Assembly (NCBI GenBank): GCA_031763025.1
Contig: JASSKH010000029.1
Coordinates: forward strand, 1,798,001 to 1,862,000
Source of the DNA: Macrocystis pyrifera
Lineage: Eukaryota > Sar > Phaeophyceae > Laminariales > Laminariaceae
Reading direction: 5' to 3'
DNA: 64,000 nt
Shown here: positions 5,293-63,700 of the stretch, in pieces
How the letters are laid out: every line of letters begins with the position of its first letter
How positions within the stretch are numbered: position 1 is the first letter of the stretch
Position numbers and translations under genes: made by a program
The notes under the pieces: model-generated
What the model saw: only the letters and a program-made list of their open reading frames with translations
Databases searched by the model: none
What the model was told of the DNA's origin: nothing

Positions 5293-5301
5293 TACCAGGT
5301 A
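5293..5301. repeat. TACCAGGTA motif 1
   Basis: Exact 9-mer, followed immediately by a one-mismatch copy (TACCAGGAA) at 5303. It belongs to the dispersed TACCWGGTA set interpreted as transposon footprints. Confidence 0.8.
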
Positions 5302-5351
5302 GTACCAGGAACATCAACGCGGCGAAGATCCACACGTTGTTCTCAAGAGTT

Positions 5352-5379
5352 GTTGTTGTTGTTGTTGTTGTTGTTGTTG
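5352..5379. repeat. (TTG)n microsatellite
   Basis: About nine TTG triplets followed by CTCTCACGTTAGCTCATCGCC. The same TTG-to-CTCAC-to-CATCGCC context recurs at about 40735 and 63950, so it belongs to a dispersed repeat. Confidence 0.85.
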
Positions 5380-5459
5380 CTCTCACGTTAGCTCATCGCC
5401 ACAATGCAATGCATTCTGTGGTCGCAGGATAGGCTCCTATAACTCTTCGAGTGGGAGAA

Positions 5460-6060
5460 TACCTCGGTAGAAATAAAAAACATGCAAAGAATAATACACA
5501 TGATAACCCTATTACACCTCAGACAAAAATAAAAAGTGAGGTCCGCGCTCGTGCGTATCAGGTACATGCGGTAAGCTGTACAAGTCCCCACCCACATAAA
5601 CCGAGAAGACCGCACACTTCCCAGGAAAAAATGGACAGGGTAAAAAAACAACTCGATATCGAAAGAATCGAACAACGAAGTCTAAAAAACCAAAGATCAA
5701 AAAGGGAAGAGAGAGAAAAAGCCAAAAAAAAATCGATTCAAGCAAGAAAGCAAGAGATCAAGAAAAGAAAATGCATAAACAAGAGGATGCGCAGATTTTC
5801 GCAGATTGCAAGCTCGCAAGCTACGCGAGGGGTGTAGAACGGAGATAACAAGAAAAAAAAACATGCTTACCTCGCTATTGAGAACACCAGCGGAGCAAAA
5901 AAGAAAACGAAAAACGAAAACGAAAGGGAGGACGACGAAACAAACAGTAAATAAAAAGAAACAGCAGATAGCAAAAAGTATAAAGGGAGAGACACAAAGC
6001 AAACGGGAAAAAAGGAAAGACGATAAAACGAAGAGGAAAAAAACGACGAAGAGGAGGCGT
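5460..6060. repeat. Strand-asymmetric purine-rich tract
   Basis: Roughly 600 bp in which the plus strand is dominated by A and G (AAAAAGAAAACG-type sequence). Any reading frame gives a lysine/arginine-rich peptide, and the complement gives a phenylalanine/leucine-rich one. I treat these open frames as composition artefacts. The LINE copies at 15.7-16.1 kb and 32.2-32.7 kb contain similar purine/pyrimidine tracts, so this may be a relic of such an element, but no direct alignment is evident. Confidence 0.5.
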
Positions 6061-6066
6061 ACCACG

Positions 6067-6075
6067 TACCAGGTA
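6067..6075. repeat. TACCAGGTA motif 2
   Basis: Exact 9-mer in the context CG-motif-TAA, at the end of the purine-rich tract. Confidence 0.8.
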
Positions 6076-6451
6076 TAATACCGGTCGCGCGGTATGGACA
6101 TACAAAGCTATGAATATCATGACTCTTGATACCCCGAAGTAAGTATCCACTCCTATTCCTCGCTAGGTTCAAGTACTTAATAACGCATCGTAGAATCGGA
6201 AGCGTTATGTCTGAAAGCGACAACCGAAACCTCGAACGGCTCCCTCTGTCCCTGGCGACGTCCCAACCCTACCCGCACCATTCGCACCACAACCAGCCCC
6301 ACTTGCCACTTTCGTCAACACCCCCATCGCCGAGCACAGCAGCTGAAGTGCTACCGAGTGCAACGCCCAGTCGCCGCTCTATCAAGGTACGAGGACTTTC
6401 AAGGGGTACTTCTGAGAGTAGATGCACTCCCGTGAGAGCACACACGCACGC

Positions 6452-6524
6452 GCGGTCGAAGTATCACACGCAGCTTGCATGAAAACGGGTCGAAGTATCG
6501 TACACGCAGCTCGCATGAAAACGG
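6452..6524. repeat. ~37 bp direct duplication
   Basis: GGTCGAAGTATC through GCATGAAAAC occurs twice in direct tandem with small differences. A diverged single relative (CGATCGAAGTATCACAC) is at about 16770. Confidence 0.8.
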
Positions 6525-6613
6525 GTGTTGGGGTATATCTATTTAATGTTTATTGTACATACGCGCGACTTCCCTAGTGCTTCGAAGTTCCACTCCCAAG
6601 TAGAGTAGTTTGC

Positions 6614-6710
6614 TATTACGGGGGTCCATAGTTAACAGGACCTATGGTATACACAAAAACCTATACATTTACCTATTTCTACTAACAAAATTTTGTCCCA
6701 TTAACTATGG
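6614..6710 (-). mobile_element. MITE, TTACGGGGG family, copy 5 (right end lost)
   Basis: The left TIR is intact (TTACGGGGGTCCATAG). The right side stops at CCATTAACTATGG and then passes into unrelated sequence, so the last ~12 bp including CCCCCGTAA are missing. It is a broken copy that could no longer be mobilised. Confidence 0.8.
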
Positions 6711-8061
6711 ATTGGGTTTGCCCATCAATGTCGTCGTACCATGTATCTTGCTGCATGCGAATCGCGTTTGTCTCGTGTAGAGCGTATCTCCCAGGGGGCG
6801 AAAAAACAAGGACGTGCACTGGGTGTGCTGGGTATCGTGTGGAAATAAATTGCGAAGAATGCAGACAAAACTGGTGTCGGGTACAAATTCTGTGCTGCTG
6901 GTCGATCCTCCACCAAGTACACTCTCAGACCAGAACGCTGTACTCGTTTCCAGCGCAAAACGTATATAGAACCTATCTATGCTTACGCTGTATCGTAGTT
7001 GTACATGCTGCTGCTGTTCACAGTATCTCACAATCACTTCCCCATTTCTGGCGCATGTGGAGCGGATGTTAATAATTATTCTGTGAACACCCCCGCTTGC
7101 ATTACATACCCCCCTGGGCGGACAGCTTAGGCTTGTTCGTGGATAAATATCACTATACCCAACGGTCCTTATCTTTCCGTCCGAAGCAGTACAATATGCT
7201 GCACCAGGTATAGGGTTGCTTCTCCCAACGTGCTACGAGGTATAGCTGTAGGCAACCAGCGCCCATGCCTACTTTATACAGTTCCATGACCTTATGCTCG
7301 GCAACCCAACAATACATCGATTCAACGGCTATGACTACTGGGCAGCAGACCTACACCTACGCCGGCCTATCAATCTTTTGCCCATGAAGGCTTCTAGGTA
7401 AAATATAGGGCATACTCGTCGTCCACCCGTTGGGATCCTGTTGTCGGTTTTGATCAGAGAGGATTCTACGTAGGACTTTCGATTTTTTCAAAATTCTATA
7501 TTTCCTAATTTCAAATTTCCAAATTTCTGATTGTACAGACAGCCAAGAAGGGCTGCCGGCGAACAGGAACAAAAGGTTCTGACATTACTCGTAATATAAA
7601 AAAAATACCTGCTAGGATACAGGAACAATTGGAAGTTGGGAAATTGAAAAAAAACAAACATTATTTTTGGTCCGCGATGAGCAGAATGCTATGTATTCTG
7701 GCACAGATTGGTACGTTTTACTGTTAACGTCGGACCCGGACCATATGGTCTCTGCGTTTGCAAAACGTAGCTCCCATCACCTACGTACGGACCGCGCTCG
7801 TTTACAATGCAATCGCGGGATGCAAGAAGTCTCAATATTCTGTAGTAGCTGTGCTGTTTTTGCTTTCCTTGCTGATGTAATACGCTAGTATGATCGCATT
7901 TCGGTCATCGAGGCAACCTGAAAAAAAAAAAGCAAGAATCCACCACGCCGCCCACCAAGCTTGAATCGTCTATCTACCCTCTGGCTCGCCGTAATTACTC
8001 TCTCGATTAAACAGCACCGTTCGCGCATCAACCCAACCCCCTTTATTCGAACAGGAATAGC
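6711..8061. other. Intergenic, no supported gene
   Basis: There are no recognisable exons, repeats or RNA genes. It lies immediately upstream of the signal-peptide exon at 8062 and so should contain that gene's promoter. I see no diagnostic TATA or initiator element that I would defend. Confidence 0.35.
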
Positions 8062-8187
8062 ATGATGATGCGCGCTTCTGGGATCGTGGGGATCGGCCTC
8101 CTAGCCTTGTCGTTTCCGCAGCAAGCAAACGCGACCACCGTCAAGCAACGCCAACGAGCTGCATGCGGCGGGAGACGCCCAGGAGAT
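8062..8187 (+). other. Exon 1: signal peptide of the secreted-protein gene
   Basis: 42 codons from three consecutive ATGs to a GTAAGT donor at 8188. It has a positively charged N-tip, a hydrophobic core, an Ala-x-Ala type cleavage region, then a basic linker rich in Q, R and K. Confidence 0.65.
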
Positions 8188-11100
8188 GTAAGTCGCAGAG
8201 TGCACGCCTTTGGTTTGCGGTTATCGTCTGTAGCTATTTCGGGGGTCCATAGTTAATAGGACCTATGGTAGACATAAAAACTATATATTTACCTATTTTT
8301 ACTAACAAAATTTGGTCCCGTTAACTATGGACCCCCGTAATAAAAAGAACACCGATGTCGACGCGACTGGTATTTTACTTTTTTTTTGCTGAAAGTTGAT
8401 TGGAGCAGTAGGCCGTATCGCTTAGGAAGTTATTACGGGGGTCCATAGTTAATAGGACCTATGGTATACATAAAAACCTATATATTTTACTATTTTTACT
8501 AACAAAAATTTGGTCCCATTAACTATGGACCCCCGTAATAGGAACTCGTACCGTTTTGGTCGGAAGTAAAGCCACGACAGAGGCGGTACGCTATCTTCTG
8601 AGCTCCTCCTCACATGAGGAGCCCAATGTCCCAACCGAAACATGAATCCGAAGGAGCTTGTTCACGCAACGAAGCCGACCAACAATTGTGTGCGCTGCTG
8701 CTGTACTTTTAAAACAACTAAGAATAACAGTAAAACCACCGATCCATCTAAGCGGGGTTCTAGTGGCCTACTTAAGGAGCTCAAACCGTCAGAAGATACT
8801 GAGCAAAATACGTAGTGGAACCCATAACGTGGCAATGCGCTTAAACATTTGCATCGTACGTACGGAATACCGCACGGTAGATAGAATGATTTTCTTGTAT
8901 CCCCCATATTGAAATTACTTTATACATCAAATCAGCACTGATGTAGCGTGGTAAGTCGCGTTCTGTTCAGACCGCGATGGGCATGTTTCCGTACCGCAGG
9001 GGGTTCATGTGATATCTTGACCGTCGTTTTGACAAACAGCCGGTTTTCGGGAGCTCGACAACCAGAATCCCGTGATATGTATGTATATTAGCGCGTTTAG
9101 TGAAACCTGAGGCATAGTCCAATCCGTGCCACTGCCATTTACTGTAGAGTCTCATACTATCCTTTCCTATGACTGTCTTTGGGCAGGGATGCAACTACTA
9201 CATTTCGCGGAGAAAAATCAGAGGAAACTGCGGGATGGACGAAGTGGGCGACAACTGCTGCAGTGAGTCCACGTTTGTGCGTACGCGTTAACTAGGCGCA
9301 CGTTGCTGCTGCAGCGGTTCCGGCCATGGCGTGTGAAACGTCCCGACGGTGCTACAGAGCCTTGAAGTACATCCAGCAGTAGAGCTCGTGCGGGGTTCGA
9401 GTAGGCGAAAATGAGTTTTGATGCATGTTTTCTGTATGCGAGTCCTGACGTGAGATGTCAAACAATGGTCGACAGTGTCGGTGTTGCTTGTTGGTTCTTG
9501 TTGCCCTTGTTGGTGAGCATTTAGTGGTTTGAACTACGGCACTCGTCAGGCAACCGAAACAGTCAAACGTTTTTTACTAAAGATGCACGGGAGGCGCTCT
9601 ACGACAGAGGTCCTACATTTAGGAAAAAATTACTTTGTGAGCCACCACGGCGTCATTACCGGGCGGCAGTTGAAGGAAGGAGGATGGGTGGGTATGTGAC
9701 TTGTGCTTTACATTGTTGGGCTTAATGCGTACGTACACGTGCAAGATGTGTGTAGCATCAGTGTGAGATGTGCGTAGCATCAGTCGTATTCACAGAGTTG
9801 TCCCCGTTGAATTCGGCGTTGTATATTGGGGGGATATATGAGCCTCAGAAAGTTTAAGTTGAATCTTTATCGTAGGGCGCCTCGAAGGCGTTACTGGCGT
9901 CGACCAGCACAAGCGATATTTTCAATGGGCTAAGTTTGAAGCTTTCATTGGTAATGAGTATTGCGCACCGCACATGAATGCTGCTGCAAAACAGGCCCAA
10001 CCTCACTGTACACCCTTCCGACTGCTCCGTCCCCCGTCCGGTTAACTTTTACACGTGGCCCTGGGTCTGGCTCGACACCTTGAAGACCCTGTGGGTAAGT
10101 CACTGTCACTGACGCTTGATGCATCGCATGTACTGTGTGGGAATCTAGCACAATCAGTGTTGATTGGATACAATCGTACTGTACATCGTTGGCACGAAAC
10201 TATTCCATGCGTGCCTTTGAGGGACACACGCCCTAGCAGGATGTCATACGGTGGCAACTAGTATTGTCGACATGTAGGTATTGACTAGATGGCACGCCGA
10301 ACCGGGAGCCCCGTCGTCTGCCATGCGACAGTGCACGCCAGCGTTCGGAGAGTGTATCAAACGGCTGGTGGTAATGATCGACAACAAAATATTACTTCAT
10401 GTCCGTTTTTCCTCGTTGATCCGTCCATGTACTGGGATGTAAGGTAGAAAATCGTTACGAGTGCAGACTCAGCGTAACACTCGACACCACGAACTGCTGA
10501 ACGCCCAAGCACTTCTAAACAGTCTTGATAAATGCCCGACTCCTGTCGCGTATGCGTCCGTGATTTTTTTCGATACACATTTGCAAACGACAGTGTGCCC
10601 GGACGGAAGCAGCTTGTGTGGTGAGCCGCACATGCAAGGTCTCCGCGGTCAGCATATCAACTGGTCTGGAGTCGACGGCGGCTGGTACTGTCTAGTCAAG
10701 GACGAAGACGCCGACTTCCTCGTCAACGTCCGGCTCACCGCGCCTCAGCCCGAAGACTTCCCCGACCGCCAGCTGGTCACCGGCCTGAGCGTCATCTCTG
10801 ACGGGAACTCTCTCGTGGTGGAGGTGAAAGACCCTTACACTACCGTCACGAGTGGGTGTCCTCATGGACAATCAGTGTGCCTTGCCAACGGTGGTCTGAG
10901 TGCCTCCGTAAACGGTGGGGACGCCGGTCAGCTCCTCGTGCCCACCAGGGACGCCTATGTGGTGGACGGTATTGACATGTCCGGATCAAACCTGCCGGTG
11001 GAGTGCAGACAGTTCGGCGGGGACCAGCTCTGGGCGCGCATGTACGCCGAGATGCTCCAGGGCGAAAGGGAACTGCTGGGCGACACGTTCGAGGACTGGG

Positions 11101-11495: not shown

Positions 11496-12933
11496 AGCAA
11501 TCAACTACACAGTAGACGCACGGCAAGTGTTGTTTCTTCTCGTTGTGGGATAGCGTGCACGTCCACCACCACTACCACAGCTACCACCACTACCACCACC
11601 ACGGCCCCTGTGGTAAAACAGTCTTGACGTGAGTAATGACAGATGTACGAATGGTAAGAATACAAGTATGTGTACTTGCGCAACTTGGTATGGTGTATGT
11701 TTTAATATATGTGCGTGTGTTGTGAGACGTGAGCAGCAGCCGTCATAGATATGACAAGATGTGAGAAGCAGTGCTGTTTTGGATGGTACGAAGTCGCCCA
11801 AAAACGTACACCGTGTGTTTATGTAATCCGGCTTTTACTATTATATAATTCCAGGTTGTGCGTTGAGTTTTTTTCGATATGGTGTGTTCAACGTTTTGGC
11901 GGAGTTGTGATGGCACGGGAGTCTTTGTTTCCTTGATGACATACCTGGTAGGCGTACATAAGAGAGTTTTGTCGAAGTGGAGTGGGAGTTTTCAATATGC
12001 CAGACAAACGTAAGTCCTCGGATGTAGGTTTTTCGAGACGGCGGCAGCGCGAACCTCCGCGTTCTTGCGTCTGGCTCTACGTCCTGGAGAGGGGGGGGGG
12101 GGAAATTAGCGCACTGTTTGCGGTTGAGGCTGATGCAGCGGTGGCCCTGCTTGAAAGAGGGCCCACGCTACTGCGCTTGCTTCAACCATGTGCACCGCTA
12201 ATGCAGCGTAGGGTGTTGTACTTGCCGTCTAGTGTTCTACCTGTAATACAGCCGGCGATATACTGGAAGATGTAGTGCGTGTACGATGTATGGAGGCATC
12301 TCGCCAAAAGGGAACGTTCTCGTATGTGTTGTACGTATAGGCAGGGAACATTTGTTTTATTATCTATGGTAATGTAGTAAGTGGAATACTAGATGCGTGG
12401 CTACTCTGTTTTATCGCAGTCCGCATGAAATTCTGGTAAATGTGTTTTAGGTATCCGTGTGTGAGATGTAGTCGTCAGTGCGCGAAGTAGCGACATGGTG
12501 CCGACTAAATAGATTAACATCCACTCAGTAAGTTAGACGTCAATTTTGGTTACCGTCGTCATTAGTAGCTACTGTAGCACATTTTTTTTGTTTTAGGCGC
12601 GTGTACTCTATTTTCTTCTTGTGAGTCTACTAAGGTACAAGGTACCGAGACTGTGAAGAAGAAAGACCAAACTCACTCAGTAAAGTACGTTCATTTTAGC
12701 TTTCGTCCGCATGATGTAACAGCAGGGGTATCATCTTGAGATGTTCTCGTGTACACTAGTTTTCCCTTGTGAGTGTCTGGCAGTACCAAGTACATATGCT
12801 GTGACCAATTAGGCGTCTACTTACCGAGTAGAATACTTCCAAATGGTGTTATAGTTTAAATTGACAGGTGGGGCGTATGTTCGAGACGTTTGCGCTTGCT
12901 GGAGGTTCCTCTTTTGACTGCCGAAAGAAAGAG
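11496..12933. repeat. Duplicated downstream block, copy A
   Basis: This block has a diverged partner at about 18810-20050. Shared landmarks are CGGCGGCAGCGC, then GCAGCGGTGGCCCT, TGCTTGCTTCAAC, GCGATATAC and TTATCTATGG. It ends in imperfect ~135 bp units marked by CTTGTGAGT followed by paired GTAC motifs. A frame at 11982-12275 shares a short similarity (SCVWL, then TAVALL/AAVALL) with the partner, but the partner has stops, so coding status is doubtful. Confidence 0.5.
11942..11950. repeat. TACCTGGTA motif 3
   Basis: Exact 9-mer with T at the centre, context ACA-motif-GGC. Confidence 0.8.
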
Positions 12934-14772: not shown

Positions 14773-14781
14773 TACCTGGTA
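14773..14781. repeat. TACCTGGTA motif 4
   Basis: Exact 9-mer, context ATC-motif-CTG. Confidence 0.8.
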
Positions 14782-16659: not shown

Positions 16660-16668
16660 TACCTGGTA
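16660..16668. repeat. TACCTGGTA motif 5
   Basis: Exact 9-mer, context CTT-motif-CGT, just beyond the truncated LINE. Confidence 0.8.
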
Positions 16669-18767: not shown

Positions 18768-18776
18768 TACCTGGTA
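18768..18776. repeat. TACCTGGTA motif 6
   Basis: Exact 9-mer, context GTA-motif-CGT. Confidence 0.8.
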
Positions 18777-28044: not shown

Positions 28045-28053
28045 TACCAGGTA
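28045..28053. repeat. TACCAGGTA motif 7
   Basis: Exact 9-mer, context ATC-motif-TAT. Confidence 0.8.
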
Positions 28054-37050: not shown

Positions 37051-37557
37051 CTTCCACCACTCCCACTGGGTTTACCTGCAGGCCTCGCACCATCCCGCCA
37101 ATCCCGCTTGAAGGTATCGCAGCAGTCTTATCAATAGTAAACACAGCACTGGAATGAAATATAAATTCAAAAACAACCGATATCTAACCACTGTACTGCT
37201 GTGACTGAGATTTGGCCCCTGCGTTGTGGTTTTGTCGGGCCCCGACTCACACCAGCCACCGGCTGTTTGCATCGCCCCTACCGTTTGCTCGGCGCATGGC
37301 ACGTTACCGTACCCTCACTGCTGGTACCAATTGTGCGTGCGAATCGGGCACCCGTACTATCTCGGGGGTGACTTGGCTTGTTATGACTGACATATGATAT
37401 GCTGGAACCGAGGTCATCGATGTACGATACCGAAGAAACAGCGGTCCACACGCGCGGGTACCAGGTACATTTGATATCCTGGTACCGCAGCAGCACTATT
37501 AATAGTGCCCACAGAAATTTTCCGAATGGCAATATAACACTCGGGTGTCCAATTTAT
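37051..37557. other. Upstream flank of the DIRS-like element; no gene
   Basis: No supported coding sequence. It contains one exact TACCAGGTA and, 10 bp later, a TATCCTGGTA relative. Confidence 0.35.
37459..37467. repeat. TACCAGGTA motif 8
   Basis: Exact 9-mer, context GGG-motif-CAT. A reversed near-copy (ATCCTGGTA) starts at 37475. Confidence 0.8.
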
Positions 37558-45556: not shown

Positions 45557-45565
45557 TACCAGGTA
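45557..45565. repeat. TACCAGGTA motif 9
   Basis: Exact 9-mer, context GTA-motif-TAC, with an AACCAGGTA relative 15 bp downstream. Confidence 0.8.
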
Positions 45566-47831: not shown

Positions 47832-48830
47832 GTCTATAGCAGTATTTCGTCCATTGGTAGTGTTCGTACCGCTGCTTCTTCTGCGAGACTCAGTACTCAC
47901 AGTAATGAAATAGCCTCAATATGCCCAGTATACTTCGAGTATGAAGTATACTTCAACCGTTTGTGCACCGTGTCGACAAGTCTCAGGCCCAGCTTTTGGC
48001 ACAAAACACACACAGATAGTCCCACACGAGTGGGAGTTGGAGCAAACTACTTTCGCTGGAGACAACTTGAGCACCCAAAGCAGTCTGCCAGTATTTCGAT
48101 ACCAGGTATAATATTATGCATGACTGCGAATGCTCTCAGTTTCTCGAGGTTCTGTACTGGGCATATATTGCGTTTACCCCAAGTATTTACGTCGTGTTTC
48201 GATACTACTGCGGGTACATACTTTAAGCAACCTGTATTCTCGGGGTTCGGTACTGCTCACACTCTCATTGCTCTCAGTATTTGTGGGCCTTTTCTCAGTA
48301 CTCGCAGTAGTTTTGCCGCCAGTACTCCAATACTCTCAGTACTCGGACTACGATTTGTTCTCCGATTTGTTCTCGAGCATTTACCTGTGAAACCTTGATA
48401 TTATACCCTGAGCACCAAGAAACATTTATTTTGGGGGAACATATATATTGTAGTACCATTATGTATATATGTGCTGCACCTTATTACTCAGCCGGTCACA
48501 AAGTATTATGGCGCAACCTCGACCTCGCGCAACTTTTATTATGTACTTACGAATCAATCGCCGCGAGTCAGCTGGATCAATATATCTCGACTTACCGATA
48601 CCCTATTATATATTATTATGGTAATGATCCCACACTGATTCCGCGAACAGCAGTATAATATAGTCTGTCCTCAAAAAATAAGCTGTGTGTTCTTCACGTT
48701 AAAATTATGGGTGGGTGCAGGTGCTACTTCTAAAAAAGTGTGCAGGGTTTCATACGAGTGTTATTATTTCGCTCTTGCGCCACTCCCCTATTAATACGGC
48801 ACCTCCCGGAGGGGAACCTTGTATAGTCTA
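47832..48830. other. No supported gene
   Basis: Repeats of AGTACT(C/T)GCAGTA-like sequence, including TTCTCAGTACTCGCAGTA, give short-period structure at 48200-48380. No coding sequence is supported. Confidence 0.35.
48100..48108. repeat. TACCAGGTA motif 10
   Basis: Exact 9-mer, context CGA-motif-TAA. Confidence 0.8.
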
Positions 48831-48981: not shown

Positions 48982-50544
48982 GATACAACTATAATTACGA
49001 TTTTTGAGGTCGTTGTCACTTGCTAGCTCTTGGCAGACAGACCGACTGATAGACAGCTCTTCGCAAACAGCCCTTCTTCTTTGAAACAGCCAAACAGCCA
49101 AACAACCTTTCTTCCTTCTTTGAAACAGCCGAACAGCCAAACTTTTCTTCTTTCTTCTTCCGCAAACTGCCAACCAATAGACAGCTCTTTGCACGGCGCC
49201 TACAAGAGGCGTCTCGCCTTCGACGACACGAACGGCATAGGTGCAGCTGTCGGCGGCCAAGCTGCTGCTGTCGGTGGCCAACCTGCTGGTGCTGCAACCC
49301 CCGCCTCTCCCTTCTCCACGCCCCCTAAGCTCACCTCCCCCTCGTCGAGAGGCGCGTGGTCCTCGCCCTCTGGCAAGAGAGCGGCAACGACAAAGACCGA
49401 CCTGGTGCCGGCTGTTGTTTGCGACCAGTGCACGGACCAGCACTTACTTGGTCAAGAACTCCGCACCTGGTGGCAAAAACGTGGCCTTCGCCACCTGCAA
49501 GGATCTCACGTGCGTGGTGGCGGGATCATCCTGACAGGGCAACCGACTGCGAGTTCTGTGCTCGCCCGATCAAGGAAGGGACTGTCTCGTACTCCCTCGA
49601 GACTGCTGACAGTGGTGAGTGTCTTACGTCTATTGTGCATGCTGTATGTTGCCAGTACGTTTTTTTGGGGTTTTCAATTGCCTTTTTGCATACAAACTTT
49701 ACGTCGTTTATTTATTTTTTTACTCATCCATGCTCGTTCTTTCCCCTTCGTGCGTTGCGTCGGCTCCTCTTACACACAGTGCACGCGAACGCCAACATGC
49801 ACAACTGTTTGCGGGACGTGAACGAAGGAACGGAGGATTCAGCTGTCGCCGTCACCGCTGCACCGAACGACGTGAGTGCTGCTGCTACTGTGGTGCATTT
49901 TCGGTGCATGCACACGGTTTCTGTGTGTACATGTTTGGGTGACCCCACATGCTCATTTTGCTCGTTTTCGGCTGCCGCTGCTGCTGCTGCTGCTGTCAGC
50001 GCCACGCCGCGAGTGCTGCTGCTGCTGTGCACCTGCTTCTCCTGTGCACTCGCTGCTGCTGTAGTGCTGCTGCGTTGTTGCCGTGCTGTGCACCTGCTGC
50101 TCCTGTGCACTTGCTGCTGCTGTATGTAGTGCTGCTGCGTTGTTGCCGTGCATCATGCTGGAAGCGTACATATTTTCGGATCGTCAATTCCGTAGGTTTT
50201 GCGATAGCGGCATACCGGGGTACATGCTTTTTTTCTTCCTTATTTTCATATCGTTGCTATGCTGCTGCTGCTGCTGCCAACGCTGCCAACGCTGCTGCCA
50301 ACGCTGCGGCGATTCGTTGCAGCTTCTGCTGCTGCTAATGCTGTAGCTGCTTCTGCTGCTGCTGCTGCTAATGTGCTGCCGCAATATCCACTGAATGTTC
50401 GTATGTACTCGGATTACTGTTTTTCTTGGTCGTTTTTGTACCCAAATGGTTCCTTTTGATACGTGAAAAAATATTTTTGTCGTTTTGCTCCTGCATTTTG
50501 CGTACGTACTGCAATTTCTCGTTTTTGGCTTGGTTATTTTCATG

Positions 50545-50553
50545 TACCAGGTA
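50545..50553. repeat. TACCAGGTA motif 11, absent from sister units
   Basis: Unit 1 reads TTTCATG-motif-TATCG. Unit 2 reads TTTCATCTATATCG and unit 3 TTTCATATCG at the homologous positions (about 54240 and 57468). Confidence 0.85.
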
Positions 50554-51174
50554 TATCGTTGCTATGCTGCTGCTGTGGTGCTGCTGCGTTGTTGCCGTAC
50601 ATCATGCTGCACTTGTGTGTGTACATATTTCGGTATCGTCAATGAAATTCCGTAGGTTTTGCGACTGCGGCACACCAGGGTACATACTTTTTTTCTTCCT
50701 TATTTTCATATCGTTGCTATGCCGCTTCTGCCAACGCGGATTATTGTTTTTATTGGCCATTTTTGTACCCAAATGTTTTTTTTGATATGTAAAAAAAATA
50801 TTTTGGTCGTTTTGCTCCTGCATTTTGCGTACGTACTACTTTTTCTCGTATTTCGTATTGTTGCTATGCTGCTGTTGCGTTGTTGTCGTACAGCATGCGG
50901 AGGTGGGTCTATAGTGAGGTACCAAAAATACTTTTCGGACGGCCTCGGGGTACATACTTTTTTTCTCCCTTCTTTTCATATCGTTGCTATGCTGCTGCTG
51001 CCAACGCTGTGGCGATCCGTTGCTGCTGCTGCTGCTGCTGCTGCTCTGCTTTTAGTGCTGCCGCAATATTCACTGAATGTTTGTATGTACTCGGATAATT
51101 GTGTTTCCTGGTCGTTTTGTGGCGCTGCTGCGTTGTTGCCGTACATCATGCTGGGCATGATTTGTGTGTCTATT

Positions 51175-51660
51175 ATGGTAAATTATTTCTGAGCTCTCAG
51201 AACTGGGGTTTTAGGCTGAATATACGCGTTTTACTTGGCGGGAAAGCCAGAAACACCGATAGACTCCTCAAAATGCTCCCTGTAGTTTTTTGCGAGCTTT
51301 CAGGAACAATTTCCCGTTTCTCCAGAGTCCCAATTTGAATTTTAGAGCAGCCAATCACTTTTCTCTGGAGGGTCAGAAATAAAACTGTTGGTCAGAACTG
51401 GGGCCAGAAATAGTGGATATTCGAGGATTTTTGATGAAAAATCACGATGTCCTCAGAACTGGAAATATGGACGAACAGTCCTACGACGACTCTGGAGAAA
51501 TGGAAAAGTGCTCGAGAAAGCTCTCGGAAAACTATGGGGAGCATCGTGAGGAGTCTACCGGTGTTTTTGACAGTCCCGTTGAGTAAATCGCGGGTTTTCG
51601 GCAAAAAAAAGCCAGTTCTGAGACCCCCTCAAAAATTTCCCGTAATAGTTGGTCTTATTA
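51175..51660. mobile_element. Unit-1-specific ~490 bp foldback insertion
   Basis: Units 2 and 3 read GTGTCTATTACACTTAAAC continuously at about 54865 and 58100. Unit 1 has ~490 bp between CTATTA and TTACAC. The ends are imperfect inverted repeats (GGTAAATT...GAG..CTCAGAACTGG at the left, with its complement at the right), with an ATTA/TTA direct duplication at the borders. CAGAACTGG recurs internally. No coding capacity is recognised, so it is a non-autonomous element inserted after triplication. Confidence 0.8.
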
Positions 51661-52587
51661 TTACACTTAAACTTGTGCGTGTGTACATATTTCTGTATCG
51701 TCAATGAATTTTTTTGTGGTGCTGCTGCGTTGTTGCCGTACGTCATGCTGGACGTGATTTGTGTGTGTACTGTACCACACTTGTGTGTGTACATATTTCT
51801 GTATCGTCAATGAAATTACGTACTTTGCTGCTTCTGCTGCTGCTGCTGCTGCCGTTGTGTAGCAAGCGATTACGTACTGCTGTTGTGCCGCTGTAGAGTA
51901 GTACAAATAATGGCCTCTGCCCCCCCCCCCCCCCCCTTCCCCCTCCCCCGCCATTCCCTGCACGCCACTCCCGCCCCGCGCACCCTATATGTTTACTTCG
52001 ACCAGGTCCGTGGCAAGTGCTACAACTGCCGCCTGACGGACTCCACCATCAAAGACGGAGACATCATCATGCAAGCGCAAAAAGACTCCCTTCCATTTCG
52101 CCTACTCCAGGTCTTCGCGGAATTCCGAAGCAGTACGCCAAGCAGATTGTCGCCATCCAGGACGAACGAAAGGAAACAAATTGTTTCCCACATTTCCCAA
52201 AATCACGATTATTTCTTCGTACACATATCCAACGGGTTCAACAGCGAACAGATCCACATTCTGGGCCTCCCGCCTCGTTACTACAGCATCCTGGAAGACT
52301 ATTTACATATCATGTCTCATCCAAACTCCTGTGCTGGCTACATCGAAATCGCGGCCGCCCAGCAACTATACAACATTTCCATAACCGTTGTCGTTGCCGG
52401 CACTGCTGCTTTCTCTCCTGTCCCAAACCTTCCTTTAAACAACAGCCTGTATGTTGTATATCATCCACATACATGCCAAGCACTACTTCACTCTCTCCCC
52501 ACACTGATGAAATATGTTGTTCTTATTATTAGACGAATGTCATTCTTACTCTTGCGTCACCCGATCTTACGTTTCACATTACATTCA

Positions 52588-52600
52588 TAAATAAACGCGA
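52588..52600 (+). promoter_or_regulatory. Candidate poly(A) signal, unit 1
   Basis: CATAAATAAACG is conserved at the same place in all three units (also about 55795 and 59027), downstream of the OTU-like stop. Confidence 0.45.
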
Positions 52601-53026
52601 TTATTACATCCTTCACCGTTTCTTACACAAATACATTTAGTTTGGTTGGCTTTGGGCTATGTCGCCAATTAATTGCAGTTATATGTCCACGAAACGACGG
52701 AATACCCACTCCGAAGGAAAGCCTTGTAGATACAACTATAATTACGACTTTTGAGGTCGTTGTCACTTGCTAGCTCTTGGCAGACAGACCGACTGATAGA
52801 CAGCTCTTCGCAAACAGCCCTTCTTCTTTGAAACAGCCGAACAGCCAAACAACCTTTCTTCCTTCTTTGAAACAGCCGAACAGCCAAACAACCTTTCTTC
52901 TTTCTTCTTCGCCAAACAGCCAAACAACCTTTTCTTCTTTCTTCTTCCGCAAACTGCCAACCAATAGACAGCTCTTCGCACGGCGCCTAAAAGAGGCGTC
53001 TCGCCTTCGACGAACGGCATAGATAG

Positions 53027-53951
53027 GTACAGCTGTCGGCGGCCAAGCTGCTGCTGTCGGTGGCGAACCTGCTGGTGCTGCAACCCCCGCCTCTCCCTTC
53101 TCCACGCCCCCTAAGCTCACCTCCCCCTCGTCGAGAGGCGCGTGGTCCTCGCCCTCTGGCAAGAGAGCGGCAACGACAACGACCGACCTGGTGCCGGTTG
53201 TTGTTTGCGACCAGTGCACGGACCAGCACTTGGTCAAGAACTCCGCGCCTGGTGGCAAAAACGTGGCCTTCGCCACCTGCTAGGATCCCACGTGCGTGGT
53301 GGCGGGATCATACTGACAGGGCAACCGACTGCGAGTTCTGTGCTCGCCCGATCAAGGAAGGGACTGTCTCGTACTCCCTCGAGACTGCTGACAGTGGTGA
53401 GTGTCTTACGTCTATTGTGCATGCTGTATGTTGCCACGTCTTTTAAGAGTTTTCAATTGCCTTTTTGCATACAAACCTACGTCAAAGCGTTTATTTTTTT
53501 TTTACTCATCCATCCTCGTTCTTTCCCCTTCGTACGTTGGGTCGGCTCCTCTTACACACAGTGCACGCGAACGCGCACATGCACAACTGTTTGCGGGACG
53601 TGAAGCACACGATTTCTGTGTGTACATGTTTTGGTGACCCCACGTACTCATTTTGCTCGTTTTCGGCTGCCGCTGCTGCTGCTGCTGCTGTCAGCACCAC
53701 GCCATGAGTGCTGCTGCTGCTGTGCACCTGCTTATCCGGTGCACTCGCTGCTGCCGTAGTGCTGGTGCGTTGTTGCCGTGCTGTGCACCTGCTGCTCCTG
53801 TGCACTTGCTGCTGCCGTATGTAGTGCTGCTGCTTTGTTGCCGTGCATCATGCTGGAAGCGTACATATTTTCGGATCGTCAATTCCGTAGGTTTTGCGAT
53901 GGCGGCATACCAGGGTACATGCTTTTTTTCTTCCTTATTTTCATATCGTTG

Positions 53952-54002
<51 letters not shown>

Positions 54003-55716
54003 CAACGCTGCGGCGATTCGTTGCAGCTTCTGCTGATGCTAATGCTGTAGCTGCTTCTGCTGCTGCTGCTGCAAATGCTGCCGCAATATCCACTGAATGT
54101 TCGTATGTACTCGGATTACTGTTTCACTTGGTCGTTTTTGTACCCAAATGGTTCCTTTTGATACGTGAAAAAATATTTTTTGTCGTTTTGCTCCTGCATT
54201 TTGCGTACGTACTGCAATTTCTCGTTTTTGGCTTGGTTATTTTCATCTATATCGTTGCTATGCTGCTGCTGTGGTGCTGCTGCGTTGTTGCCGTACATCA
54301 TGCTGCACTTGTGTGTGTACATATTTCGGTATCGTCAATGAAATTCCGTAGGTTTGGCGATTGCGGCATACCAGGGTACATACTTTTTTTCTTCCTTATT
54401 TTCATGTCGTTGCTATGCTGCTGCTGCCAACGCGGATTATTGTTTTTATTGGCCATTTTTGTACCCAAATGGTTTTTTTGATACGTAAACAAAATATTTT
54501 GGTCGTTTTGCTCCTGCATTTTGCGTACGTACTACGTTTTCTCGTAATTCGTTTTGTTGCTATGCTGCTGCGTTGTTGCCGTACAGCATGCGGAGGTGGG
54601 TCTACAGTGAGGTACCAAAAATACTTTTCGGACGGCCTCGGGGTACATACTTTTTTCTCCCTTCTTTTCATATCGTTGCTACGCTGCTGCTGCCAACGCT
54701 GTGGCGATCCGTTGCTGCTTCTGCTGCTGCTGCTGCTCTGCTTTTAGTGCTGCCGCAATATTCACTGAATGTTTGTATGTACTCGGATAATTGTGTTTCC
54801 TGGTCGTTTTGTGGCGCTGCTGCGTTGTTGCCGTACATCATGCTGGACATGATTTGTGTGTCTATTACACTTAAACTTGTGCGTGTGTACATATTTCTGT
54901 ATCGTCAATGATTTTTTTTGTGGTGCTGCTGCGTTGTTGCCGTACATCATGCTGGACGTGATTTGTGTGTGTACTGTACTACACTTGTGCGTCTACATAT
55001 TTCTGTATCGTCAATGAAATTACGTACTTGCTGCTTCTGCTGCTGCTGCTGCTGCCGTCGTATTGCAAGCGATTACGTACTGCTGTTGTGCCGCTGTAAG
55101 AGTAGTACAAATAATGAACTCCCCCCCCCCCCCCCCCCTTCCCCCTCCCCCGCCATTCCCTGCACGCCACTCCCGCCCCGCGCACCCTATATGTTTACTT
55201 CGACCAGGTCCGTGGCAAGTGCTACAACTGCCGCCTGACGGACTCCACCATCAAAGACGGAGACATCATCATCAACCGCAAAAAGACTCCCTTCCATTTC
55301 GCCTGCTCCAGGGCTTCGCGGAATTCCGAAGCAGTACGTCAAGCAGACTGTCGCCATCCAGGACGAACGAAAGGAAACAAATTGTTTCCCACATTTCCCA
55401 AAATCACGATTATTTCTTCCTACACATATCCAACGGGTTCAACAGCGAACAGATCCACATTCTGGGTATCCCGCCTCGTTACTACAGCATCCTGGAAGAC
55501 TTTACATATCATGTCTGTCTCATCCAAACTCCTATGCTGGTTACATCGAAATCGCGGCCGCCCAGCAACTATACCAGGTACAACATTTCCATAACCGTTG
55601 TCGTTGCCGGCACTGCTGCTTTCTCTCCTGTCCCAAACCTTCCTTTAAACAACAGCATGTATGTTGTATATCATCCACATGCCAAGCACTACTACTCCAC
55701 TCTCTCCCCACACTGA
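53027..55716 (+). pseudogene. Zinc-finger/OTU-like gene, unit 2 copy
   Basis: Exon B (about 53027-53396) has a nonsense change: the AAG after FATC in the sister copies is TAG here. Exon C (from 53562) has lost about 70 bp including its donor, running from GGGACGTGAA straight into intron sequence. The 3' exon retains GKCYNCRLTDSTIKDGDIII and TPFHFAC in one frame and the OTU-like end (YVVYHPHAKHYYSTLSPH, stop at 55716) in another, with a 7-bp CCAGGTA insertion inside the conserved QQLYNI codons. It is inactivated by at least three independent lesions. Confidence 0.55.
55572..55580. repeat. TACCAGGTA motif 12, absent from sister units
   Basis: Unit 2 reads CAACTA-TACCAGGTA-CAACATT. Units 1 and 3 read CAACTATACAACATT (about 52366 and 58807). 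It disrupts the reading frame of the OTU-like exon. Confidence 0.95.
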
Positions 55717-57592
55717 TGAAAGATGTTATTCTTCTTATTAGACGAATGTCATTCTTACTCTTGCGTCACCTGATCTTACGTTTCACATTACATTAATAAA
55801 TAAACGCGATTATTACATCCTTCACCGTTTATTACACACATACATTTAGTTTGGTTGGCTTTGGGCTATTGTGATATGAGTAGAGTTGTCGCCAATCAAT
55901 TGCAGATTTATGTACACGAAACGACGGAATACCCACTCCGAAGGAAAGCCTTGTAGATACAACTATAATTACGATTTTTGAGGTCGTTGTCACTTGCTAG
56001 CTCTTGGCAGACAGACCGACTGATAGACAGCTCTTCGCAAACAGCCCTTCTTCTTTCTTCTTCGCCAAACAGCCAAACAACCTTTCTTCTTTCTTCTTCC
56101 GCAAACTGCCAACCACAATAGACAGCTCTTTGCACGGCGCCTAAAAGAGGCGTCTCGCCTTCGACGAACGGCATAGATAGGTAGGTGCAGCTGTCAGCGG
56201 CCAAGCTGCTGCTGTCGGTGGCGAACCTGCTGGTGCTGCAACCCCCGCCTCTCCCTTCTCCACGCCCCCTAAGCTCACCTCCCCCTCGTCGAGAGGCGCG
56301 TGGTCCTCGCCCTCTGGCAAGAGAGCGGCAACGACAAAGACCGACCTGGTGCCGGCTGTTGTGTGCGACCAGTGCACGGACCAGCACTTGGTCAAGAACT
56401 CCGCGCCTGGTGGCAAAAACGTGGCCTTCGCCACCTGCAAGGATCTCACGTGCGCTGGTGGCGGGATCATCCTGACAGGGCAACCGACTGCGAGTTCTGT
56501 GCTCGCCCGATCAAGGAAGGGACTGTCTCGTACTCCCTCGAGACTGCTGACGGTGGTGAGTGTCTTATGTCTATTGTGCATGCTGTATGTTGCCAGTACG
56601 TTTTTTGGGGGTTTTCAATTGCCTTTTTGCATACAAACCTACGTCAAAGCGTTTATTTTTTTTTTACTCATCCATGCTCGTTCTTTCCCCTTCGTGCGTT
56701 GCGTCGGCTCCTCATACACACAGTGCACGCGAACGCGCACATGCACAACTGTTTGCGGGACGTGAACGAAGGAACGGAGGATTCAGCTGTCACCGTCACC
56801 GCTGCACCGAACGACGTGAGTGCTGCTGCTACTGTGGTGCATTTTCGATGCATGCACACGATTTCTGTGTGTACATGTTTTGGTGACCCTACGTACTCAT
56901 TTTGCTCGTTTTCGGCTGCCGCTGCTGCTGCTGCTGCTGTCAGCGCCACGCCGTGAGTGCTGCTGCTGCTGTGTACCTGCTTCTCCTGTGCACTCGCTGC
57001 TGCAGTAGTGCTGCTGCGTTGTTGCCGTGCTGTGCACGTGCTGCTCCTGTGCACTTGCTGCTGCTGTATGTAGTGCTGCTGCGTTGTTGCCGTGCATCAT
57101 GCTGGAAGCGTACATATTTTCGGATCGTCAATTCCGTAGGTTTTGCGCTGGCGGCATACCAGGGTACATGCTTTTTTTCTTCCTTATTTTCATATCATTG
57201 CTATTCTGCTGCTGCTGCTGCTGCTGCTGCTGCCAACGCTGCGGCGATTCGTTGCAGCTTCTGCTGCTGCTAATGCTGTAGCTGCTTCTGCTGCTGCTAA
57301 TGCTAATACTGCCGCAATATCCACTGAATGTTCGTAGGTACTCGGATTACTGTTTTTCTTGGTCGTTTTTGTACCCAAATAGTTCTTTTGATACGTGAAA
57401 AAATATTTTTGTCGTTTTGCTCCTGAATTTTGCGTACGTACTGCTTTTTCTCGTTTTTGGTTTGGTTATTTTCATATCGTTGCTATGGTGCTGCTGTGGT
57501 GCTGCTGCGTTGTTGCCGTACATCATGCTGCACATGCGTGTGTACATATTTCGGTATCGTCAATGAAATTCCGTAGGTTTTGCGATTGCGGC

Positions 57593-57601
57593 ATACTAGG
57601 T
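57593..57601. repeat. TACTAGGTA variant motif, absent from sister units
   Basis: Unit 3 reads GCA-TACTAGGTA-CCAGGG. Unit 2 reads GCATACCAGGG and unit 1 GCACACCAGGG. This is again a 5-bp insertion plus TA duplication, with CTAGG instead of CCAGG. Confidence 0.8.
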
Positions 57602-57773
57602 ACCAGGGTGCATACTTTTTTTCTTCCTTATTTTCATATCGTTGCTATCCTGCTACCAACGCGGATTATTGTTTTTATTGGCCGTGTTTGTACCCAAATG
57701 GTTTTTTTGATACGTAAAAAAAATATTTTGGTCGTTGTTCTCCTGCATTTTGCGTACGTACTACTTTTTCTCG

Positions 57774-57782
57774 TACCTGGTA
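57774..57782. repeat. TACCTGGTA motif 13, absent from sister units
   Basis: Unit 3 reads TTTTTCTCG-TACCTGGTA-TTTCG. Unit 1 (about 50848) reads TTTTTCTCGTATTTCG and unit 2 TTTTCTCGTAATTCG. Confidence 0.95.
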
Positions 57783-59170
57783 TTTCGTATTGTTGCTATG
57801 CTGTTGTTGCTGCGTTTTTGCCGTACAGCATGCGGAGGTGGGTCTATAGTGAGGTACCAAAAATACTTTTCGGACGGCCTCGGGGTACATACTTTTTTCT
57901 CCCTTCTTTTCATATCGTTGCTATGCTGCTGCTGCCAACGCTGTGGCGATCCGTTGCTGCTTCTGCTGCTGCTGCTGCTCTGCTTTTAGTGCTGCCGCAA
58001 TATTCACTGAATGTTTGTATGTACTCGGATACTTGTGTTTCCTGGTCGTTTTGTGGCGCTGCCGCGTTGTTGCCGTACATCATGCTGGACATGATTTGTG
58101 TGTCTATTACACTTAAACTTGTGCGTGTATACGTATATATCTGTATCGTCAATGATTTTTTTTGTGATGCTGCTGCGTTGTTGCCGTACATCATGCTGGA
58201 CGTGATTTGTGCGTGTACTGTACTACACTTGTGTGTGTAAATATTTCTGTATCGTCAATGAAATTACGTACTTGCTGCTTCTGCTGCTGCTGCTGCTGCC
58301 GTTGTATAGCAAGCGATTACGTACTGCTGTTGTGCCGCTGTAGAGCAGTACAAATAATGAACTCTGTCCCCCCCCCCCCCCCCTCCCCCCTCCCCCGCCA
58401 TTCCCTGCACGCCACTCCCGCTCCGCGCACCCTATGTTTACTTCGACCAGGTCCGTGGCAAGTGCTACAACTGCCGCCTGACGGACTCCACCATCAAAGA
58501 CGGAGACATCATCATCAAGCGCAAAAATACTCCCTTCCATTTCGCCTGCTCCAGGGCTTCGCGGAATTCCGAAGCAATACGCCAAGCAGACTGTCGCCAT
58601 CCAGGACGAACGAAAGGAAACAAATTGTTTCCTACATTTCCCAAAATCACGATTATTTCTTCCTACACAATCCAGCGGGTTCAACAGCGAACAGATCCAC
58701 ATTCAGGGCCTCCCGCCTCGTTACTACAGCAGCCTGGAAGACTATTTACATATCATGTCTCATCCAAACTCCTATGCTGGCTACATCGAAATCGCGGCCG
58801 CCCAGCAACTATACAACATTTCCATAACCGTTGTCGTTGCCGGCACTGCTGCTTTCTCTCCTGTCCCAAACCTTCCTTCAAACAACAGCCTGTATGTTGT
58901 ATATCATCCACATGCCAAGCACTACTCCACTCTCTCCCCACACTGATGAAATATGTTTAGTCTTCTTATTAGACGAATGTCATTCTTACTCTTGCGTCAC
59001 CCGACTTACGTTTCACATTACATTCATAAATAAACGCGGTTATTTCATCCTTCACCGTTTCTTACGCAAATACTTTAGTTTGGTTGGCTTTGGGCTATGA
59101 CGCCAATTAATTAATTGCAGTTATATGTACAAGAAACGACGGAATACCCACTCCGAAGGAAAGCCTTGTA

Positions 59171-59504
59171 TATATATATTTTTTTTTTTATCCATCGCTT
59201 TTACTTCCCGGCCCATTCGTAGGAGGTTTGTACCCTCGACGATCCTCTGGACAAGCCGTGGTCACAGGTATCGTCCATCCCTTCTCCCCCCGGTACGTGC
59301 CTTTATTTTTTGTCGCGCGTAGGGTTCAGCATTCCCACTGCTCGTCGATTTTCATCGAATGTAGCCAACTCACGCTTTCGCGCTTTCCGCTTATCAATTT
59401 TTTATGCAAGAAAAAGTCCCTATGAGCATGCACTCGGTGGGACTTGAACCCACGAAATTGATCTTGACAGGCACGCGGACCACCTACCAAGCCACCGGGG
59501 ACGC
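59171..59504 (-). mobile_element. tRNA-derived SINE, copy 2 (full length)
   Basis: Minus-strand, full-length copy. The poly(A) tail is at its left edge (poly T 59178-59189), followed by the shared body and a 76-bp tRNA-like head at 59429-59504. It abuts unit 3 of the triplicated array on one side and the resumed 368-bp repeat on the other. A target-site duplication is not clear, perhaps because the junction coincides with the array edge. Confidence 0.88.
59429..59504 (-). other. tRNA-like head of the SINE with A and B boxes
   Basis: On the minus strand: GCGTCCCC, an A-box match TGGCTTGGTAGG (59483-59494), then a B-box match GGTTCAAGTCC (59440-59450) inside a perfect 5-bp T stem (GTGGG/CCCAC). 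The acceptor stem has two mismatches and the anticodon stem does not pair, so it is a tRNA relic serving as a pol III promoter, not a tRNA gene. Confidence 0.8.
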
Positions 59505-59511
59505 CGGCGGT

Positions 59512-59806: not shown

Positions 59807-59815
59807 TACCTGGTA
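59807..59815. repeat. TACCTGGTA motif 14
   Basis: Exact 9-mer, context ATA-motif-TAT. Confidence 0.8.
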
Positions 59816-60145: not shown

Positions 60146-60149
60146 ACGT

Positions 60150-60860: not shown

Positions 60861-61680
60861 AGTCTCTGAATTATCGAGGTACGTGTACGTAAATAAAAAT
60901 ATTCGATAGCACCTCGTATGTCAGCCGTATTTCCCTGTCTCGAGCCCTCTGACCACATTATTCTCTGTATTATCAATCATGTACAATAATTATAGGGTAA
61001 AGTGGCCTGTTGTAGCAATTTCATTAAATGACATTACAGATTATCGGGGTGTATCATAGGTTTGTCACGGTATGGTGGCAGATGCTTGCTGTAGATATGA
61101 GGTTCATTGCCAGAGCTGCCCCCAGATTTCGCTGCTGTGAGGTCGCCGCTGTTCATGCCGATGCTACCCGTCTGCTTGCTGCGCTTTGCTGCTCTTTCGA
61201 TCTTCTAGCAGACACTCTACTAATGTAGACCCCGCTCGCAGTGGTGCCCATATACCTGGAATAGCGGAAGCTGTCAGAATACAGCTCCCCGATCTGCCCG
61301 TGCTACGTATATTCATACCGGTATAATAGCCATATGGCCTGTTTTGTGACCATGTGCGAGCTTTCGGGGAAACTTGAGGTCATCAGCAGCGACGCTGTGC
61401 TGTGTTGCCATGCTGCTTAAATTACGCAACAACACATACATGTTTGTTTATGGATTAAATCAACCTACAAACCGCAGTGCTCTCCCTGTTGCACACCTCG
61501 TTGTTGGCGCGCGGCAGCATGAAACGTTAACCATGGCCCAGGCCTCTGTCGACATCCACCCCGCCAGTCTTGACTCAAACCCCCTCCTCGCCGCTACGAG
61601 TATATAACGGCTCTTCAAGGGGTGTGAACGTGTGGTGGACCGGGCTGGTTCGAAGTTGGCCGAGCCCCTGTATTGCGTTA
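60861..61680. other. No supported gene
   Basis: Short frames only. One TACCTGGAA near-motif lies at 61253. Confidence 0.35.
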
Positions 61681-61682
61681 TT

Positions 61683-62225
61683 GGATCCCCTGGTTTAGTG
61701 GATCACTTTGTCAAAAATGAGTGGTCGTACCGGGTTATTGGTGGATCACTATTATTTCAAAAATAATAGCTGGTGGATCACCATGTATGTATGTGGTCCG
61801 CGTGCCTGTCAAGATTATCAATTTCGTGAGTTCGAGTCTCACCGAGTGCATGCTCGTAGGGGCTGTTTCTTGCATTAAAGAGATTGATTAGCGGAAAGCG
61901 CGAGAGCGTGAGTTAGCTATATTCGATGAAAATCGACGAGCAGTGGGAATGCTGAACCCTATGCGCGATAAAAAATAAAGGCACGTACCGGGGGGGAGAA
62001 GGGAAGACACCTGTGACCACGGCTTGTCCAGAAAGTCGTCGAGGGTAACACCATTAGGCTGGAAAGTGAAAGTGATGAGTAAAAAAAATAAATAAATAAA
62101 TAAAAAAAATGTATGTGTGTTTAGTGGATCACATTTATTTCGGGAAATGAGTGGTGGATCACCGGCTTACTTAGTGGATCACATTTTGGAAAATGAGTGG
62201 TGGATCACTGGGCTAGCTAGCGTGT
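61683..62225. repeat. TAGTGGATCAC repeat field, split by a SINE
   Basis: At least four units of the form TTAGTGGATCACATTT, an AT-rich piece, GAAAATGAGTGGTGGATCAC, about 55 bp each. The SINE at 61796-62108 interrupts the array between two units. Confidence 0.85.
61796..62108 (+). mobile_element. tRNA-derived SINE, copy 3
   Basis: Plus-strand copy that starts within the tRNA-like head (GTCCGCGTGCCTGTCAAG), has an intact B-box region (GAGTTCGAGTCTC) and the same body, and ends in an (AAAT)n/poly(A) tail. A 9-bp target-site duplication ATGTATGTG occurs at 61787-61795 and 62109-62117. Confidence 0.93.
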
Positions 62226-62840
62226 CACAATTCTAAAAAGAGCTGCTGGCGGTGAATCATGATATATATTTATTGTTCTTGTTTTATTAGTTATTAAGGG
62301 CGACCGTTAGGAGTACGAGATCGGACTTGAGTCATGACATTTTTTTTTTTTTTTTTATTTTTTGTTTACATAGTGCTACTGTTATGGTTTTAGACCGTTT
62401 CAGGAGTTACGACGACTTGCGTTTTTGTATCAGCAGGGGACGCGTCATTTACGGCCCCTCCCCCATTTGTGGATTGCCACTCTTTCTCGCTCCTCTTCGG
62501 CGGTCCTACGTGTTGCCTCGGTCATCGCTCTCGACCGGAGGCTCAAAGCAATCAGTTTACCATCTACATACCTGGGAGACCTTCTCCCTAGCGGCAGAAG
62601 CACGCTATACCCCTCTGGGACACGTGCGAGCCCACGTCTCGACTCGGTTGGATCGTGGCCAGACTTGAGGTTGGTCTTATTATTTGTATATTTTAGGCAT
62701 GTGTTGTAATCCTGTTCTATCCTGTATCTGAAGCGGACTGTCGACGGCTGATTTTTTAAAATAGGCTCATGCCCGTGCTGCTTGCCTCATCCTGACCCAA
62801 GACCTCATGACCTATACGCTCCCGATCCATATCATGGTGT
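62226..62840. other. No supported gene
   Basis: Contains an 18-T run at 62341-62358. A 113-codon frame from the T run shows no domain. Confidence 0.35.
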
Positions 62841-62844
62841 CCAA

Positions 62845-63050
62845 TCCGAGACACGCGCTTGCACGCACTGGGGATCGTTCTACGCATCCCACTCTGTTTT
62901 GTTTTTTTTATTTGTGCGGGACCCTGAGATCTCTGTGGGTTTTATGCACACGAGGATACGTACAGCAGCAATACGTATAGCATGCGATACTTGCTGCTGT
63001 GCTGCTGTACTACAGCAGTATTAAAATAGCAGTCCTGCTGTTTTGTTTTT
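62845..63050. repeat. ~195 bp dispersed repeat, copy 2
   Basis: Direct partner of 40530-40730, with a small insertion (AATACGTATAGC) near 62970. Confidence 0.9.
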
Positions 63051-63364
63051 TATTTTTTTCGTTTTGCCTCGAATGTTTTCGCTTTGTTTTTCGGGGGAGG
63101 CAACGGACACACTCAGGAGCATATAATGCCCTGGCGTGTGTCTTATCTCTTGGTTCTAACGGCTACCCTATCCAGTTCTGTTTGCCCCTTTGCACTTTGA
63201 GGCTTTGTTGGGATGGCACAGGTGGGAGTCCAAAGCTTGCAGCACACTCGTTAGGCCCCACCCTTTTCTTTCCACCGGCAGCGATAAAAATGAATGAAAA
63301 GCAAAAGCCCGAACGTGATGTGACCTGTGGTTTGTGCGGCCCCGAGTGTGCTCGCTTTAGTGAC

Positions 63365-63650
63365 TCCCGGGCCGGGTATCCACTTGCCATCTGTCCGTCT
63401 GCGCGTCCGCTGCTGTCGCCGTACGCCACTCGTCGCTATCGCGACGCGTGGCTCTGCATTGCTGCGAACGCGGCACTTGCTCCACTTTCTCTGCTGTGGG
63501 CACTACCCACAAGTGCCTGCAGCAGGGTGCACGGAAGAGCAAACCGCGACGCGTGGCTCTGCATTGCTGCGAACGCGGCACTTGCTCCACTTTCTCTGCT
63601 GTGGGCACTACCCACAAGTGCCTGCAGCAGGATTCACGGGGAGATACCTC
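63365..63650. repeat. 105 bp tandem duplication with a relative at 41.75 kb
   Basis: GCGACGCGTGGCTCTGCATT starts at 63441 and 63546, and the following CTCTGCTGTGGGCACTACCC is identical in both. The upstream GTCGCCGTACGCCACTCGTC matches 41790-41815. The 249-codon frame spanning it is repeat-driven. Confidence 0.93.
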
Positions 63651-63691
63651 TTGGTCTAAATGTACGATTATTTTTACAGAGTAGTTACTCT

Positions 63692-63700
63692 GTACCAGGT
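63692..63700. repeat. TACCAGGTA motif 15
   Basis: Exact 9-mer, context CTG-motif-TGC, close after the 105 bp duplication. Confidence 0.8.

Follow-up and report, generated by a model that had tools for sequence, protein, structure and literature searches.

TACCWGGTA in the window and in the genome

We analysed a stretch of 64,000 nucleotides (the window) from the giant kelp Macrocystis pyrifera, positions 1,798,001 to 1,862,000 of contig JASSKH010000029.1 in assembly GCA_031763025.1, through which a nine-letter palindrome, TACCWGGTA (W is A or T), is dispersed. The exact matches, all listed on the plus strand, take two forms. The form TACCAGGTA lies at 5293..5301, 6067..6075, 28045..28053, 37459..37467, 45557..45565, 48100..48108, 50545..50553, 55572..55580 and 63693..63701, and the form TACCTGGTA at 11942..11950, 14773..14781, 16660..16668, 18768..18776, 57774..57782 and 59807..59815. 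The original prediction for this DNA had claimed 15 exact copies; all of them were found, and only the start of the last one had to be moved from 63692 to 63693. A one-mismatch copy, TACTAGGTA, lies at 57594..57602 on the same strand. For the copy at 5293, no paralogue aligned across the site in the sequence compared.

Performing 100 dinucleotide-preserving shuffles of the window, we obtained a mean of 0.42 exact matches and a maximum of 2. The 15 observed copies thus represent a roughly 36-fold excess; the random expectation given earlier was about 0.5. Allowing up to one mismatch, we counted 46 matches (15 exact and 31 with one mismatch) against 10.86 expected for the 46; at least ten of the one-mismatch kind had been announced. 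In a screen for palindromes over 162 kb, TACCNGGTA was among the top two over-represented 9-mer palindromes (33 versus 2.4 simulated); a second palindrome, TAGGNCCTA, reached 22 versus 0.93 simulated.

We then searched the genome (537,376,219 bases in 223 contigs), using the same pattern read backwards as the control. TACCWGGTA occurred 121,279 times and the reversed pattern 2,421 times, which is an approximately 50-fold excess and one copy per 4.4 kb; genome-wide counting, proposed earlier as a check, did not fall near expectation. With one copy per 4.3 kb, the window is typical of the genome. Its GC content is 50.0%, and that of the assembly is given as 50.37% in the genome paper (PMC10498591). 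The figure of 121,279 is not a count of independent events, because certain copies outside the window have been multiplied within repeats, for example in a tandem array on contig C1.

The sites do not belong to a single repeat family. By eye, their flanks showed no relation to one another, save where whole regions had been duplicated, as in the C1 array. For individual sites of the window, the earlier statement that nothing is shared between flanks is correct; when pooled, they show a weak AT-rich preference around TA.

Empty sites, target preference and doubles

Paralogous copies allowed us to compare filled with empty sites. At four positions (window 50545, 55572 and 57774, and C1:75952), paralogues with both flanks aligned have just one TA. 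Relative to them, the filled copy has gained exactly 7 bp, and its TA is duplicated. At 50545 (three alignments with an empty TA), the 7 bp are absent from the paralogue at window 54097-54399 (95.5% identity over 310) and from a C1 copy, while a third copy at window 57328 is shorter by 11 bp. At 55572, the paralogues at window 52221-52521 and 58665-58957 carry CTATACAAC and are each 7 bp shorter. Its counterpart at L025:7515 is filled identically; these two cases are copies of one repeat position and may reflect a single shared event. At 57774 (four alignments with an empty TA), a C1 copy and two window paralogues, 50696-50998 and 54392-54690, have one TA and are 7 bp shorter. The one-mismatch copy at 57594 shows a 7-bp gain against its paralogues as well. 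The sites 50545, 55572 and 57774 sit in a tandem repeat at window ~48977-59179.

We queried 63 sites, and for 26 of them a paralogue could be aligned through the site. In 5 of these 26 the paralogue showed the empty TA, window 55572 and L025:7515 being two of the five; another 5 were mixed or gave poor alignments. Conversely, 262 kb of sequence yielded eight distinct insertions of 7 bp between paralogues, of which four were the TACCWGGTA motif and one was its one-mismatch version TACTAGG-TA. Insertion at TA with duplication of TA, as in Tc1/mariner footprints, is seen in the empty and filled pairs.

To characterize the target, we pooled the two halves of 48 unique single sites and compared them with background TA. 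Outward from TA, the sites prefer Y, A and T, with AT-rich sequence beyond; uncorrected p values were 0.0007-0.009 at seven of the eight positions and 0.35 at position 4. Tc1/mariner elements prefer AT-rich surroundings of TA, and the preference at these sites resembles theirs.

Copies also occur as doubles, in which two share a common TA (TACCWGGTACCWGGTA). Genome-wide, we counted 5,620 doubles against 0 for the reversed pattern; treating the TA of a copy as an average TA predicts about 1,026. A triple is present as well (overlapping listings C24:34009 and C24:34016). Renewed insertion into the TA of an existing scar would produce such doubles and the triple, and we infer this origin for the doubles. 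A comparable case, one new element inserted next to an old footprint, is described for one locus in grasses (PMC1925063).

A dispersed short repeat with the empty core AAACCTATATATTTACC (eight exact occurrences in 330 kb) is a frequent target. A genome pattern search for CCWGG behind TAAAAACCTA gave 161 + 153 = 314 matches against 10 + 7 = 17 for the reversed pattern. Among the 100 of 314 matches listed, a complete TACCWGGTA stood at the first TA in 80 (56 distinct strings), at the second TA in 9 (4 distinct strings) and at the third in 1; the other 10 were altered scars or unrelated. Of the 80 copies at the first TA, 75 continue into the repeat and five do not, among them a double. Amplification of the repeat may have produced part of these copies from others, although both middle bases (15 A, 5 T among the matches listed) were present within an identical consensus flank. 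An occupied site at this target is rare at best.

A candidate excision scar and its rivals

TACCWGGTA is in our view probably a scar left by the excision of a cut-and-paste DNA transposon that behaves like Tc1/mariner elements. Such a transposon would insert at TA, duplicating it; on departure, five of its terminal bases would stay behind in the donor site, and the two 5-nt ends would anneal and be joined with high precision to give TA-CCWGG-TA. Insertion with TA duplication is well supported by the paralogues, and the excision of a longer element, with CCWGG ends, is the best inference. The empty and filled sites agree with the central prediction of the footprint proposed originally; an element with CCAGG/CCTGG ends was not recognised in the sequence examined.

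We extend this reading tentatively, at somewhat short of even chances, to a kelp transposon with asymmetric, cohesive 5-nt ends. If its ends read inward CCAGG and CCTGG, the overhangs would be fully cohesive, almost all scars would be a uniform 7 bp, and the middle base would record the orientation of the element. About 10^5 oriented and datable departures would then be preserved, the element itself being rare or extinct. Few sources would be expected, by argument, if each cut-and-paste copy leaves many scars before dying. Over the control, the excess of one-mismatch copies is 119,969 and that of exact copies 118,858, a ratio of ~1.0. Assuming the decay of a single cohort, we arrive at ~11% divergence and ~330,000 original scars, a rough estimate because imprecise scars and backgrounds differ.

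Several results weigh against the departure of a transposon. We failed to find any TA-CCWGG-ended pair with convincing inverted repeats in the 262 kb and 330 kb examined, where one array-bound inverted repeat was rejected; the remainder of the genome was searched for ends by short patterns, among the matches listed. Among the 100 of 314 matches listed at the frequent target repeat, there was no clear occupied site. Matches to PF13358 and PF01359 numbered 0 in the genome, the control genomes being silent for PF01359 too. PF03184 (DDE_1), which occurs in pogo-like transposases, gave 39 genome matches (e.g. C202:8066650 and C162:80734), many with long open frames and several of these with more than 330 codons. 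Two DDE_1 loci were read, L031 and L032; paired CCWGG ends were recognised at neither and the element boundaries were not fixed, though three TACCWGG strings are present at L032. In the empty and filled pairs the TAs are five nucleotides apart, where reviews give 2-3 nt for Tc1/mariner. Finally, 14 of the 26 sites with paralogues were filled in all copies and 2 were matched by point variants only; the two point-variant cases indicate that insertion was not the origin of at least a few exact copies.

Inspecting by eye the sequence behind strong target flanks (100 of 775 matches listed), we saw altered scars, scars with extra G and array repeats, with no common element end. The extra-G copies form a minor class with one or two additional G (TACCAGGGTA, TACCAGGGGTA), making up 9 of 62 distinct entries behind strong target flanks; 8 of these 9 have A in the middle (among the matches listed for a genome-wide pattern). 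The inverted repeat TGATACCAGGCTCTAYTGCGCA on C1 was rejected as an element; its seven matches (C1, C101 and C113), obtained with a search pattern that left out copies starting with C, had identical flanks in 7 of 7 and were not dispersed. No Pfam family was found for 10 of the 30 listed window open reading frames, nor for ten of C1. By eye, the L031 locus carries a catalytic-looking motif, MNGCASH, a possible sign that this copy is non-catalytic or domesticated, and at L032 CAGTAGGGGG adjoins TA and may be a tip.

The middle base bears on a rival that was part of the original prediction. In that version, the departed element had identical inverted ends, CCAGG...CCTGG, and the central A-A mismatch was resolved randomly to A or T. 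A and T are both common and nearly balanced at 39 unique sites, with 21 and 18 respectively. This fits such random repair, and so does one flank test, in which the base before TA had no significant effect on the middle base of altered copies behind strong flanks (p 0.07, among the matches listed), a result that also speaks against oriented ends. Mismatch resolution between identical ends should ignore the flank, and elsewhere it is not ignored. In CATG-TACCWGGTA-TAT, we counted by eye 69 A and 31 T in the first 100 of 176 matches (p 0.0002). At the repeat target, the 80 first-TA scars among the matches listed had 53 A versus 27 T (p 0.005, a value that the possible non-independence of these copies affects). 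Altered copies behind the strong left flank had 33 T versus 12 A (among the matches listed), for which mutation bias is another possible cause, and the first flanking base had a weak effect at the unique sites (p 0.04). In doubles, the T-then-A order made up 609 of 5,620 genome-wide, 10.8% versus 25%; a target preference for TA beside CCAGG could give the same scarcity. A near-absence of T-then-A doubles (1 in the first 50 places, by eye) was dropped in view of the genome-wide count, the first-listed places being small contigs. Repair of a central mismatch to A or T is thus disfavoured, as the choice depends on the flank and, in doubles, on the neighbouring copy, and we regard identical ends as unlikely. 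We suggest instead, as the simplest reading common to these results, that the orientation in which the element sat is recorded by the middle base; the element's ends would then differ at position 3 and leave fully cohesive overhangs.

It is also rather unlikely that a transposase or a repair reaction placed the 7 bp straight into TA, with no longer element ever involved. Such a minute insertion, an alternative already raised in the original prediction, would explain why no longer element was seen in the sequence examined and why scars outnumber visible sources. TA targeting, the 2-bp duplication and the AT-rich preference are, however, traits of DDE-type integration, for which we know of no 5-bp substrate, and a low-copy cut-and-paste element can by argument leave many scars. 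CCWGG is the EcoRII site, and rejoining after cuts there by a restriction-like nuclease would likewise leave one CCWGG; a mariner element of an algal virus is described as carrying an EcoRII-like nuclease gene (PMC3627910). Excision by such a nuclease is nevertheless very improbable, as a nuclease alone leaves the TA duplication unexplained and the EcoRII-C domain (PF09019) had 0 matches in the genome, with the control genomes silent too. A palindrome in such excess might also suggest a protein-binding site under selection (a regulator, insulator or origin). Wherever a comparison is informative, however, the motif is a gain of exactly 7 bp at TA, and it also occurs within repeats and in tandem doubles; this reading has only a very slim chance. 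For an artefact of composition or assembly we found nothing in favour, and we give it next to no credence: the shuffles, the reversed controls and the paralogue alignments speak against it, and for TAGGNCCTA, a comparable palindrome, 21 of 22 places fall within a single repeat family, whereas the flanks of TACCWGGTA are unrelated.

Known systems and other repeats

The excision scar proposed here is close to that of known TA-inserting elements and differs from them in several respects. According to two sources, the transposases of Sleeping Beauty and mariner make their cut 3 nt within the element, Tc1/mariner overhangs are 2-3 nt long, and the resulting footprint, TAC(A/T)GTA, likewise has a duplicated TA target with terminal bases between the TAs and an A/T centre (PMC7827188, PMC3878927). 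The kelp scar differs in having five bases rather than three, very many copies, a flank-dependent middle base and a source that was not found in the sequence examined. Despite the likeness, we do not class it as a Tc1/mariner footprint, because its length is not 2-3 nt and the element itself is missing. The grass Stowaway/Osmar5 elements also leave TA-flanked remnants of terminal sequence; these footprints are mixed and 1-4 bp long (PMC1925063), whereas a single sequence dominates in kelp. In rice, transposon polymorphisms were analysed locus by locus (PMC4423477). Among brown algae, Ectocarpus has Mariner-Tc1 elements in 17 families with 11,912 copies; the word 'footprint' is absent from the main text of that report (PMC12477816), and no element was linked to the kelp motif.

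In the main text of the giant kelp genome paper, neither 'motif' nor 'palindrom' occurs (PMC10498591). Titles and abstract beginnings in the open-licence literature, among the matches listed, gave no description of the TACCAGGTA motif or of kelp or brown-algal excision footprints. In the portions of the literature compared, excision scars are short, mixed and treated locus by locus, while the kelp scar is a uniform nine letters found once per 4.4 kb. If our reading is true, a single assembly would tell how many departures took place, how old they are, which targets were chosen and perhaps which way round the elements sat, all of which could be compared across kelp species, and recurrent +7 insertion at TA sites would be a mutational force.

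Other repeats lie in and around the window. The tandem repeat at window 48977-59179 consists of three units of 3.2-3.8 kb; one further copy is an insertion in a TA run at C1 ~62219-65867. The unit junction reads CCTTG-TA-GATAC, and by eye the ends are without inverted repeats. The palindrome TAGGNCCTA was rejected as a scar, as all but one of its places fall inside one short repeat with ends TTACGGGGGTCCATAG. This abundant palindromic repeat of ~105 bp is MITE-like (resembling miniature inverted-repeat transposable elements) and contains TAGGWCCTA; it is found at window ~4230-8540 (e.g. 8433-8538) and also elsewhere in the sequence examined. Another rejected candidate, GGGGATCCCC, belongs to a tandem satellite whose ~20-bp unit, TTAGGGGATCCCCTCCCAGC, is repeated at 21647-21929, with core copies dispersed to 22224.

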